Positions 36,652-41,209 of a DNA stretch of 53,001 bases are shown piece after piece (the stretch's first letter is position 1; each line of letters begins with the position of its first letter). The position numbers and the translations under genes were made by a program. This DNA comes from Acidimicrobiales bacterium (GTDB lineage Bacteria > Actinomycetota > Acidimicrobiia > Acidimicrobiales > RAAP-2). Under the pieces are notes generated by a model. It saw only the letters and a program-made list of their open reading frames with translations. It was not told where the DNA came from and did no database searches. The stretch is from assembly GCA_025351385.1 (NCBI GenBank), contig JANXWA010000010.1, positions 1 to 53,001 of the forward strand. Direction: 5' to 3'.

Positions 36652-37581
36652 CTATTGCAGAGTCGGGGCCTCGGGCAGGTAGACGCCGTCGGGGACGTTC
36701 TTGGCGTGCTCGACCACGTCGAGCAGCAGTGCGTGGATCGCGCGCACCGGAGCGGCCGGGAACCCGAACCGGCGACTCGCCAGCACGACGCGGCGCCGCG
36801 CGATCGCGTCGATGTGGACGGCGACGAACTTGTCACGAAGGTGCGACGACAGCATGGTCGCGGGCAGGATCGACGGCCCGTACCCGTCGAAGGTCAACGA
36901 GGCGATTGTGCGGATGCCGTCGAGTTCGATCAGCGGCACCAGTTCGACGCCTTGGGCGTGGCTGGCGTCGTCGATCTCGCGTCGGATCGGGGTGCCCCGA
37001 AGCGGCAAGAGGAGTTCGTAGTCGGCCAATTGGGCGAACGAGACCAGCGCCTTCATCTGGGCGATGGGGTGGTCCTTCGCGACGATTACCACGAGGTCCT
37101 CGGTGAAGAGTTCGACCTCGGTCAGCTCCGGCGCGTCGACCGGCCAGGCGAGGACCGCCAGGTCCAGTCGACCGTGGACGAGCTGGGGTTCGATGACCGA
37201 GTTCGAGCCTTCGATGATCCGCAGCGCGATCTGGGGATAGGTGGAACGAAGGGCGTCGAGCAGCAGTGGCACGATCCAGCGCCCGGCCGTTCCGATCATC
37301 CCGAGCACCACCTGGCCGCGGATATCGGCGTTGAGCTCGGAGACGTCCGACGCGATCGCGCTCAACTCGCCCAGTATCCGCCTCGCGCGCGAGACGACGA
37401 TCTCACCCGATTCGGTCAACAGGCCCGTCGCGCGGTTGACCAGCTCGGTGCCCAGTTCGTCCTCCAGGCGGGCGATCCGGTTCGAGATGTTGGACTGGAC
37501 GGTGCCGAGGACGTCGGCCGCGCTCGAGAAGGTGCCGTGGTCCGATATCCCCACCAGGGCCTCGAGCTGACGAATCTCCAC
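36652..37581 (-). CDS. LysR-family transcriptional regulator
   Basis: A 309-residue regulator with the N-terminal winged helix (IRQLEALVGISDHGTFSSAA, then DVLGTVQSNISNRIARLEDE) and a two-lobed periplasmic-binding-like effector domain. It is the first gene of a minus-strand run (alkA, M20 peptidase, DsbA-like, dienelactone hydrolase) and is divergent from a small RNA and murT. The GTG start lies six bases after -10 TATAGT, so the mRNA is probably leaderless. The repeats in the upstream region overlap this promoter, consistent with autoregulation. Confidence 0.9.
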   Translation of the reverse strand: MEIRQLEALVGISDHGTFSSAADVLGTVQSNISNRIARLEDELGTELVNRATGLLTESGEIVVSRARRILGELSAIASDVSELNADIRGQVVLGMIGTAGRWIVPLLLDALRSTYPQIALRIIEGSNSVIEPQLVHGRLDLAVLAWPVDAPELTEVELFTEDLVVIVAKDHPIAQMKALVSFAQLADYELLLPLRGTPIRREIDDASHAQGVELVPLIELDGIRTIASLTFDGYGPSILPATMLSSHLRDKFVAVHIDAIARRRVVLASRRFGFPAAPVRAIHALLLDVVEHAKNVPDGVYLPEAPTLQ

Positions 37582-37582
37582 G

Positions 37583-37649
37583 TATCAACTATACAGATAG
37601 GAAGTATCTCAACTATTCACTTGCGAGATACCTCCGGACCCGCCATAAT
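37583..37649 (+). promoter_or_regulatory. lysR operator-like repeats overlapping a forward promoter
   Basis: GTATCTC (37604-37610) and GAGATAC (37625-37631) are a perfect inverted repeat with a 14-base spacer, flanked on the lysR side by TATC/GATA at 37583-37599. A forward promoter with -35 TTGCGA (37621-37626), a 17-base spacer and -10 CATAAT (37644-37649) overlaps the right arm. LysR binding would therefore touch both the lysR promoter and the promoter of the small RNA. Confidence 0.5.
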
Positions 37650-37655
37650 TGCTTC

Positions 37656-37745
37656 TGCCTGCTCCAATCAATTCCCCCCAATTGACGGAGCACTGGTTCT
37701 GCAAAAGGGTCAACCACCCCCCGGTTGGCCCTTTTGTGTTTTCTG
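37656..37745 (+). ncRNA. 6C-type small RNA with terminator
   Basis: Two hairpins, each with a C-rich loop, lie between lysR and murT. Hairpin one is TCAATT/AATTGA around six C bases (37668-37685). Hairpin two has 13-bp arms AAAAGGGTCAACC (37703-37715) and GGTTGGCCCTTTT (37723-37735) around ACCCCCC, followed by GTGTTTT, forming an intrinsic terminator. Paired C6 loops of this kind define the actinobacterial 6C RNA family. The 5' end is placed from the -10 at 37644-37649. In mycobacteria the C-rich loops pair with G-rich mRNA segments. I see no other gene for this terminator to serve, so it ends the small RNA. Confidence 0.8.
37703..37745 (+). terminator. Intrinsic terminator of the 6C RNA
   Basis: The 13-bp stem (one G-T pair) around ACCCCCC with a following T-rich stretch is the strongest factor-independent terminator in the window. 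It lies 20 bases before murT, so murT must either have its own promoter inside or just after it or depend on read-through. Confidence 0.8.
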
Positions 37746-37765
37746 ATGTGATTAGCGTTGCCTCA

Positions 37766-38983
37766 ATGAGCAACGGCCCGGGCATCCGCGACTACCTGGC
37801 GATTTCCGGTGTCCGACTGGTCAATCGACTCTCGCGACTGACCGGACGAGGGTCGGGCACGGTCGCGGGCGGCCGGGTGGGTCTGCGCCTCGCGCCCGAT
37901 CTACTCGCCACTGCGTCGCGCGATCGCACGACTGTTCTCGTCAGCGGGACCAACGGCAAGACTACGACAACCTCGATGATCGCCGCCGGTTGGGGTGGAC
38001 TAGTCACCACCAACGCGACGGGCGCGAACATGCCGGCCGGGCACGTGGCGGCGTTGGCCGAGAGCACCGAACGGCGCACCGTACTCGAGGTCGACGAGGC
38101 CTGGCTGCCCACGGTGCTCGCCGCGACCGGACCCCGAGTCGTCGTGCTGCTCAACCTCTCGCGCGACCAGTTGGACCGGGCCGGCGAAGTGCGCCAGATG
38201 GCCGAACGGTGGCGCGGGGCACTGGCGCACAGTTCGGGCACGGAGGTCGTCGTGGCCAACGCGAACGATCCACTGGTCGTCTACGCCGCCGAGGAGGCCA
38301 CTCGCGTCGTTTGGTGCGACGTGGCGACGACGTGGTTGGCCGACGCGGTGTCCTGTCCCAAGTGCACGACGGCCATCTCCCACGACGCCAACTCGTGGCG
38401 CTGCCGTTGCGGTTTCGCGAAGCCTCCGGCCGTCGTGACCACCACGGGCTCTGAGCTCGTCGTCGGCGGACACCGCGTCGAGCTCGACCTGGCGTTGCCC
38501 GGAGAGTTCAATCGCGCCAACGCCGCCATGGCCCTGGCGGCGCTCGACGTCGTCGGCGTCGACCTCGACGAGGCGGTCCAGCGCGTCAACGCCGTCTCGA
38601 ACGTGGCCGGACGGTTCAGTCTGCGCCAGTGGAACGGGCACCGGCTCCGCCTGCTGCTCGCGAAGAACCCGGCCGGTTTCGCCGCGATGCTCGCCACGGT
38701 GCCGAACGACGTGAGCGACGTATGGGTCGCCATCAACGCCCGTGTCGCCGACGGGCGCGACCCGTCGTGGCTCTTCGACGTTCCCTTCGAGGAGTTGGCC
38801 GGCCACCGAGTCTTCGCCCTCGGCGACCGACGCCTCGACCTCGCGACGAGGCTGGACTACGCCGGGGTCGACTACGTGATCGTCGACGACGAGTCGACGG
38901 TCCCAGTGTCGAGTGACGTGACCCTGCTACTGGCCAACTACACCGCCTTCAGCGACTGGTTGGCGAGGTCGAGCCCGTGCTGA
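37766..38983 (+). CDS. murT: Lipid II isoglutaminyl synthase subunit MurT
   Basis: A 405-residue Mur-ligase-like protein. The nucleotide loop is VSGTNGKTTTTSMIAAG (about 59-75), the central Mur domain is followed by a zinc ribbon (C197, C200, C213, C215), and the C-terminal DUF1727-type domain has VADGRDPSWLFDV with D329 and D332 near the catalytic Asp region. With GatD it amidates the D-Glu of lipid II. ATG 37766 gives the usual N-terminus; the frame is open back into the small-RNA region but lacks a signal. It overlaps gatD by seven bases. Confidence 0.92.
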   Translation: MSNGPGIRDYLAISGVRLVNRLSRLTGRGSGTVAGGRVGLRLAPDLLATASRDRTTVLVSGTNGKTTTTSMIAAGWGGLVTTNATGANMPAGHVAALAESTERRTVLEVDEAWLPTVLAATGPRVVVLLNLSRDQLDRAGEVRQMAERWRGALAHSSGTEVVVANANDPLVVYAAEEATRVVWCDVATTWLADAVSCPKCTTAISHDANSWRCRCGFAKPPAVVTTTGSELVVGGHRVELDLALPGEFNRANAAMALAALDVVGVDLDEAVQRVNAVSNVAGRFSLRQWNGHRLRLLLAKNPAGFAAMLATVPNDVSDVWVAINARVADGRDPSWLFDVPFEELAGHRVFALGDRRLDLATRLDYAGVDYVIVDDESTVPVSSDVTLLLANYTAFSDWLARSSPC

Positions 38984-39654
38984 GGGTCGCCGTCCTCTTC
39001 CCCGAACTGCTCGGCACCTACGGCGACGGGGGCAATGGTGTGGTGATCGCCGAGCGGGCGCGCCGTCGCGGCTACGAGGTCGAGCTGGCTCACGTTGGAC
39101 TCGGTGACGATGTGCCCGAGGCGGCCCTCTACCTCCTCGGGGGAGGCGAGGACGGACCGCAACGACTGGCGGCGGACCTGCTGCGCGATTCGTCGTTCGC
39201 CTCGCGGGTCGGTGACGGCGCCCACGTGGTCGCGGTCTGCGCCGGCCTGCAGATCCTCGGTGAGTCCTTCTGCATCGAGGGCGACGACCAGTACGCCGGG
39301 CTGGGACTCGTCGACGTAGTGACTCGACGAGGGGCGGTGCGGTCGGTCGGCGAGCTGGCGGCGCGCGTGGGGGAGCGCATGCTCGTCGGTTTCGAGAACC
39401 ACGGCGGACGCACGTCGCTGGGGACTGACGTGGCGCCATTCGGCAAGGTCGCGAAGGGTCGGGGCAACGACGGCGCGCTCGACGGCTACCGGACGCTCAC
39501 CATCTGGGCGACCTACGCCCACGGTCCGGTGCTCGCGATGAATCCGTGGTTCGCTGACCAGGTGCTTTCGTCGGTGCTCGACGTCGAGCTCGAGCCGCTC
39601 GCCACTGCGGCCGACCTTCTCTATGCGTCGCGCTGCGCGGCGCTCGGGTTCTAG
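38977..39654 (+). CDS. gatD: Lipid II isoglutaminyl synthase glutaminase subunit GatD
   Basis: A 225-residue CobB/CobQ-type glutaminase. It opens MLRVAVLFPELLGTYGDGGN, has the nucleophile C88 in VVAVCAGLQILGESF and the catalytic His at 182 in TYAHGPVLAMNP. It feeds ammonia to MurT, giving D-iso-Gln in peptidoglycan. Start GTG 38977 overlaps murT. Its TAG shares the CTAG palindrome with the stop of the convergent acyltransferase gene. Confidence 0.92.
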   Translation: MLRVAVLFPELLGTYGDGGNGVVIAERARRRGYEVELAHVGLGDDVPEAALYLLGGGEDGPQRLAADLLRDSSFASRVGDGAHVVAVCAGLQILGESFCIEGDDQYAGLGLVDVVTRRGAVRSVGELAARVGERMLVGFENHGGRTSLGTDVAPFGKVAKGRGNDGALDGYRTLTIWATYAHGPVLAMNPWFADQVLSSVLDVELEPLATAADLLYASRCAALGF

Positions 39655-41135: not shown

Positions 41136-41209
41136 GGGCGCTTAGCTCAGCTGGTTAGAGCGCAGCCTTCACACGGCTGAGGTCGAGGGTTCGAGTCCCC
41201 CAGCGCCCA
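41136..41209 (+). tRNA. tRNA-Val (CAC)
   Basis: A full cloverleaf: acceptor GGGCGCT/AGCGCCC, D stem GCTC/GAGC, anticodon stem CAGCC/GGCTG with loop TTCACAC (anticodon CAC at 41170-41172), T arm GAGGG-TTCGAGT-CCCCC with one A-C mismatch. The 3' CCA is not encoded. A -10-like TAGGAT lies nine bases upstream. It marks the border between compact high-GC genes and the accessory block to the right. Confidence 0.93.

Follow-up and report, generated by a model that had tools for sequence, protein, structure and literature searches.

Within the window, by which we mean the whole 53,001-nucleotide stretch of DNA that was analysed, a 184-base gap separates two divergently transcribed genes, lysR and murT, and holds a predicted small-RNA gene whose product has two C-rich hairpin loops (Table 1). 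The source organism is a soil actinobacterium of the order Acidimicrobiales. The product of lysR has the Pfam domains HTH_1 and LysR_substrate, and the products of murT and of the neighbouring gatD match the NCBIfam MurT and GatD models, below the cut-offs of these models. The original prediction described two hairpins with loops of six C, the second terminator-like, behind a promoter whose -35 element overlaps an inverted repeat, GTATCTC-N14-GAGATAC. Both parts of this description hold. The RNA folds at -39.2 kcal/mol, against -20.56 kcal/mol (sd 2.82) for shuffled sequences (z -6.61; none of 200 shuffles was as good), and a scan of positions 37000-38200 returned one terminator-like site and one promoter-like site, the latter at 37621-37649. 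The arms of the repeat lie at 37604-37610 (GTATCTC) and 37625-37631 (GAGATAC), and the right arm overlaps the -35 element of the small RNA. The lysR transcript appears to be leaderless, both here and at the other loci of the order, as judged from the position of its predicted -10 element. Across the order, lysR starts are preceded by an ATCATT-like element at -13 to -8, whose end is some 6-8 nt from the start codon.

Table 1. Genes and predicted features around the C-loop small RNA (positions in the window).
Feature	Position	Strand	Details and evidence
lysR, LysR-type regulator	36652..37581	-	309 aa, GTG start; predicted leaderless
Predicted lysR -10, TATAGT on the minus strand	37588..37593	-	6 nt ahead of the start codon; sequence
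Predicted LysR operator, inverted repeat GTATCTC-N14-GAGATAC	37604..37631		sequence only
Small RNA promoter, -35 TTGCGA, spacer 17, -10 CATAAT	37621..37649	+	promoter scan
C-loop small RNA, about 87 nt, predicted ends	37656..37742	+	fold, alignment A1, covariation, model R1 matches
Hairpin 1, loop CCCCCC 37674-37679	37657..37697	+	fold; stem variable with compensation
Hairpin 2, terminator-like, 15 pairs, loop ACCCCCC 37716-37722	37701..37737	+	fold, terminator scan, covariation
T tract TTTT after hairpin 2	37739..37742	+	sequence
Predicted murT -10, TAGCGT, leaderless murT	37753..37758	+	pattern in 26/27 loci
murT, lipid II isoglutaminyl synthase subunit	37766..38983	+	Pfam MurT_C, Mur_ligase_M; probably a separate unit
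gatD, glutamine amidotransferase subunit, neighbour	38977..39654	+	Pfam GATase_3

The region is conserved within the genus. A DNA search of 61 genomes matched it in 27, namely its own genome and 26 of the 36 congeners, and in none of the 24 genomes from other families. All 27 loci, our own included, have a divergent lysR and murT downstream, and in their alignment (A1) both C loops keep at least five C throughout. The promoter follows the pattern TTG-N3, a spacer of exactly 17 and CATA(A/C)T in 26 of these loci. Eleven of the 24 base pairs have changed on both sides, and the compensatory cells of the alignment number 52, compared with 11.5 in shuffles (none of 500 reached as high); the covariation of hairpin 1 is probably understated because MAFFT misplaces this hairpin in many rows. 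A covariance model built from the 27 loci, R1, matched 57 of 61 genomes of the genus at E 0.1, weakly in G016 (0.013), and has a single match in its own genome, at this locus. The R1-negative genome G064 still shows two C-loop hairpins at its lysR (locus L095). A second copy was seen in G029 (L028, 1455-1549), in which the terminal C-loop hairpin is retained and the first C loop is gone; it was left out of A1 for this loss, and neither lysR nor murT was matched in its flanks.

The regulator extends well beyond the genus. LysR is present in 153 of 198 genomes of the order (E<=1e-45), with a single match apiece, and the 21 genomes with LysR in a sample of 296 from the phylum all lie inside the order. 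The name of the order is taken from the labels of 80 named LysR loci: 37 read Acidimicrobiales or Acidimicrobiaceae, the 16 closest included; the others are mostly Actinomycetes or actinobacterium, with five Acidobacteria/Acidobacteriota and one Saccharibacteria. Many of the isolate names refer to bog, palsa or fen. Of the loci in the 153 LysR-bearing genomes, we inspected the divergent side of lysR at 103 (30 from the LysR search and 73 others, one per genus) for hairpins with a loop of five C, eight pairs and -10 kcal/mol. At least one C-loop hairpin was found at 87 of them, at least two at 44 and three at 7, compared with 7 of 103 on the opposite strand, 8 of 103 in a distal stretch and 14% in shuffles. 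These thresholds miss weak first hairpins and four-C loops (such as those of L163), and ten of the regions are slightly shifted because the anchor is ATG or GTG in just 93 of the 103. When the rule is relaxed, at least two C loops are seen at 77 of the 80 named loci, a number that does not change if the loops have to be 25 nt or more apart. The terminal hairpins of these loci, which were selected for pairing (three of the 80 gave none), contain runs of 5-8 C in 77 out of 77 cases while their stems vary. This change in the stems is why R1 alone recovers few genomes of the order, 32 of 248 at E 0.01. Outside the genus we infer termination from the sequence, since many such RNAs end without a clear U tract. 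Three consecutive C-loop hairpins occur at L139, L147, L150, L157, L183, L188 and L190, six of which were also folded; loop number thus differs between genera. At most three were counted for L150 and L134, because the fourth hairpin listed for them sits beyond the terminal one.

The genes that follow the RNA are diverse. A HAD-acyltransferase match lies downstream at 48 of the 87 RNA-bearing loci, in the forward direction at 44, the matches at L103, L120, L130 and L136 being distant and on the minus strand. Another 14 loci have murT without the HAD-acyltransferase, six in the family of our own genome, f1 (L091-L095 and L126), and eight in other families, and 25 have other genes. The order RNA, HAD-acyltransferase, murT is found at L134 and L175, and also at L048 of a sister genus, and may be ancestral. 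At 14 loci the first large frame beyond the RNA runs back towards it and encodes aconitase in the two that were tested; these frames were called mechanically (at least 80 aa), and L144 has an 86-aa forward frame in between. Because the downstream genes vary, the constant partner of the RNA is lysR.

A predicted operator accompanies this partnership across the order. At 55 of the 87 RNA-bearing loci, the motif TATC-N6-AACTGTTGGACAGAT is found 19 nt away from the start of lysR. Its TTGGACA half overlaps the -35 element of the RNA. The motif was trained on the RNA-bearing loci; in tenfold cross-validation, 85 of these 87 score above every one of 103 distal controls (maximum 2.6 bits), as against 2 of the 16 RNA-less loci (L163, with its four-C loops, and L173), or 3 of 16 at a lower threshold. 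The association between operator and RNA has a Fisher P of 2e-13, calculated with relatedness ignored. The reverse strand also passes at 30 of the 103 loci because the motif is nearly palindromic. The exact pattern of the genus occurs once in our genome, at 37604-37631, and among 61 genomes of the genus 28 of its 32 matches sit at the RNA, the four other sites comparing with a control count of two. This exact pattern is missing from 32 of the 61 genomes, and 7 of the 27 genus loci lack a relaxed form of it.

RNAs that lie away from lysR bear directly on this link. Fifteen RNAs of this kind with two C loops were accepted on inspection; further R1 hits without lysR were not counted (L055/L231, L060, L066, L224 and L225, together with L053 and L068, which were left out uninspected). 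Four of the fifteen carry the operator (L050, L052, L062 and L226, at 28-36 bits), and the genomes of the first three have LysR loci of their own (L114, L111 and L118, respectively) with neither RNA nor operator. That the operator is located where the RNA is provides the best evidence for control of the RNA by LysR in trans. The other 11, all from family f16, score -12 to 8 bits and show no convincing operator; two of them, L049 and L063, exceed 2.6 bits, but at other positions or distances. One f16 genome, G223, is a counterexample, with the operator absent from its LysR locus (L117) and from both of its RNAs. Overall, most of the order loci inspected have either both operator and RNA or neither, which bears out the suggestion that an operator of LysR type lies on the promoter of the RNA. 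By eye, six two-C-loop RNAs of f16 (L217, L218, L223, L227, L228 and L230) have the sequence TGTGAC...GTCNC upstream, which we take to resemble a CRP/GlxR site. The 6C RNA of C. glutamicum is placed within the GlxR network by one study (PMC4046766).

How the RNA relates to the 6C family of actinobacteria requires a closer look. The original prediction named it a 6C-type RNA and proposed a covariance search as the test of that name, and this search was negative even at E 10. In the Rfam scan of the window, the sole match at gathering score is a tRNA (41136-41209), and 6C is absent from the three Rfam matches up to E 10 in 37500-37850; the 6C model itself, RF01066, gives no match in our genome, nor at ten loci of the order at E 1. 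This excludes a close member of 6C and not a distant one, because RF01066 is itself narrow: it matches 21 of 296 genomes of the phylum, 12 of them above the cut-off, and the match in C. glutamicum falls below. The 6C RNA of this species is reported to be seen by northern blot (PMC4046766). The RNA could thus be a true, diverged member of 6C by descent, a reading that we regard as quite possible while leaning somewhat against it. Like 6C RNA, it has a pair of hairpins with about six C in either loop, and it shares the plan in which a short linker joins the two and the terminal hairpin is long. Weak matches (E up to 10) were obtained in 15 of 22 Rfam 6C loci with R1 (best 18.4 bits) and in 10 with R2, whose best score was 21.5 bits; R2 is an order-level model that we used for cross-matching only because just hairpin 2 is kept as structure. 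These matches fall at the positions of the 6C RNAs, although C-rich GC hairpins may explain them. The lack of any RF01066 match here and at the ten order loci counts against descent from 6C, as does the gene neighbourhood. A HAD-IB hydrolase gene adjoins 17 of the 22 Rfam 6C loci, and in a forward search the order's HAD-acyltransferase matched this 6C neighbour best in three of four genomes with 6C. In the reciprocal search, however, another gene is preferred in six of seven order genomes, so that the HAD gene beside the 6C RNA of Actinomycetes is not the counterpart of the one beside the C-loop RNA, and we dropped HAD synteny with 6C. By this test, the neighbourhood common to known 6C loci was not found around the C-loop RNA. 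With the cross-matches weak and the reciprocal test failed, we filed the RNA as a 6C-like variant and not as a 6C member.

The HAD genes preferred by the reciprocal search have 46-53% identity in five of the order genomes. In the seventh genome, G101, the HAD-acyltransferase gave the best single piece; the competing gene there is divided between two pieces. None of the seven loci of these better-matching genes has a pair of C-loop hairpins nearby; single ones occur near some, including one at L212 that is divergent at 163 nt. In five of the seven loci (L210, L211, L212, L213 and L215), the gene that the 6C-associated HAD matches best has a selenocysteine tRNA gene in its vicinity; at L215 the HAD match came in two pieces.

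A second reading concerns murT, of which the RNA had been proposed to be a potential read-through leader. As a cis-acting leader or attenuator, it would be read through or terminated upon a signal to control murT-gatD. The arrangement at our locus invites this view, since the T tract ends 23 nt before the ATG of murT, and murT follows the RNA at all 27 genus loci and, with no HAD-acyltransferase intervening, at eight loci of other families. We nevertheless consider it unlikely. The pattern TA(A/G)NNT-N5-11-(A/G)TG stands ahead of murT at 26 of the 27 genus loci (as TAGCGT in most), and by this pattern the spacing leaves no room for a leader. At L011 and L027, where inserts of about 0.3 and 0.4 kb follow the RNA, the -10 element has remained beside murT, which argues against read-through. 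Elsewhere in the order a forward HAD-acyltransferase takes the place of murT at 44 of the 87 loci, with murT behind it at two, and at 14 loci the neighbouring large frame (aconitase in the two tested) is convergent. The simplest interpretation of these sequences is that RNA and murT are two separate units. The leader function is thus largely unsupported, and the proposed lysR-RNA-murT synteny stands for the 27 genus loci and some loci of other families without being general.

That the hairpins are a mere terminator region between lysR and murT, C-rich by composition and with no small-RNA function, is very improbable: hairpin 2 is indeed terminator-like, but the C loops are strand-biased (87 versus 7 of 103 loci), the runs of 5-8 C persist in 77 of 77 terminal hairpins despite the change of stems, and a promoter precedes the RNA at 26 of 27 loci.

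We therefore think it probable, on the strength of structure, conservation, promoter, operator and the shared presence or absence of operator and RNA, that the locus encodes a free-standing RNA of about 87 nt that acts in trans and is controlled by the divergent, nearly dedicated LysR through a shared operator, with murT-gatD apart from it. LysR would bind the predicted operator, which lies between the two divergent promoters and overlaps both, and would thereby regulate the RNA. That it activates the RNA is a guess from the precedents of OxyR/OxyS and GcvA/GcvB; it probably represses its own gene. The murT-gatD genes would be transcribed as a separate, leaderless unit. The unpaired C loops may bind mRNAs at G-rich ribosome-binding sites and so prevent their translation. 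This last step is modelled on the mycobacterial 6C RNA B11, in which one C loop, whichever of the two, is enough to repress a reporter by way of six G in the eccB4 5' UTR (PMC10470900); by analogy, the C loops studied here probably mask such sites.

Candidate targets can be listed on this basis. The pattern G6-N4-9-ATG occurs 1800 times in 41 genomes compared with 924 times in reversed controls (1.95 times, overlapping matches within longer G runs being scored separately), and the excess is seen in 41 of 41, although it may reflect Shine-Dalgarno bias only. In our own genome we inspected 28 of the 39 matches and searched ten of the proteins; the candidates include a WhiB regulator, an Hcp-like protein, a class-III aminotransferase, two EcKL kinase-like proteins and a permease. 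At L232, the gene of a WhiB-type regulator, a candidate target, has GGGGGGAGGG right before its start codon.

More broadly, and more tentatively, these RNAs may form an unrecognised family of the Acidimicrobiales, perhaps of separate origin from 6C. Its members would be arrays of two or three C-loop hairpins that cover G-rich ribosome-binding sites throughout the genome, their copy and loop numbers depending on the lineage, and the LysR would be nearly dedicated, serving chiefly the RNA. The open-licence literature that we searched contained no report of 6C RNA under the stem Acidimicrobi-, and none on a small RNA together with LysR in Acidimicrobiia or on noncoding RNA transcriptomes of Acidimicrobiales; for 6C RNA in combination with LysR it yielded work on mycobacterial genomes. 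To our knowledge, little is known of the control of 6C-type RNAs, and at this locus the likely regulator and operator of a 6C-like RNA can be read from the DNA. The RNAs that carry the operator elsewhere amount to a built-in genetic test made by nature. In addition, the Rfam 6C model misses the C-loop RNAs in the genomes of this order.

Three known systems invite comparison. With 6C RNA, the C-loop RNA shares two hairpins with C-rich loops, the last of them long, a free-standing gene and an actinobacterial host; it differs in being unmatched by the covariance model, in its own stems, neighbours and promoter, in its pairing with LysR, and in having three hairpins at 7 of the 103 order loci. OxyR/OxyS is likewise a LysR-type regulator with a divergent small RNA, and among PDB sequences the LysR of our locus matches OxyR chains best. 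This LysR, unlike OxyR, has no cysteine, so that it lacks a thiol redox switch and should not sense as OxyR does, and OxyS is presumably unrelated to the C-loop RNA. The third system is GcvA, a regulator that has further targets, with gcvB of enterobacteria and vibrios. According to one study, gcvA and gcvB are always divergent while the downstream genes vary, and the gcvB RNA is 211 nt long in Vibrio alginolyticus (PMC9409037). The same conserved divergence of a LysR-type regulator and a small RNA, with variable genes downstream, is found here, and the predicted operator falls within the RNA promoter. The RNA itself is unrelated to gcvB and the bacteria are others; the lysR-RNA pair adds an actinobacterial parallel to GcvA/gcvB.
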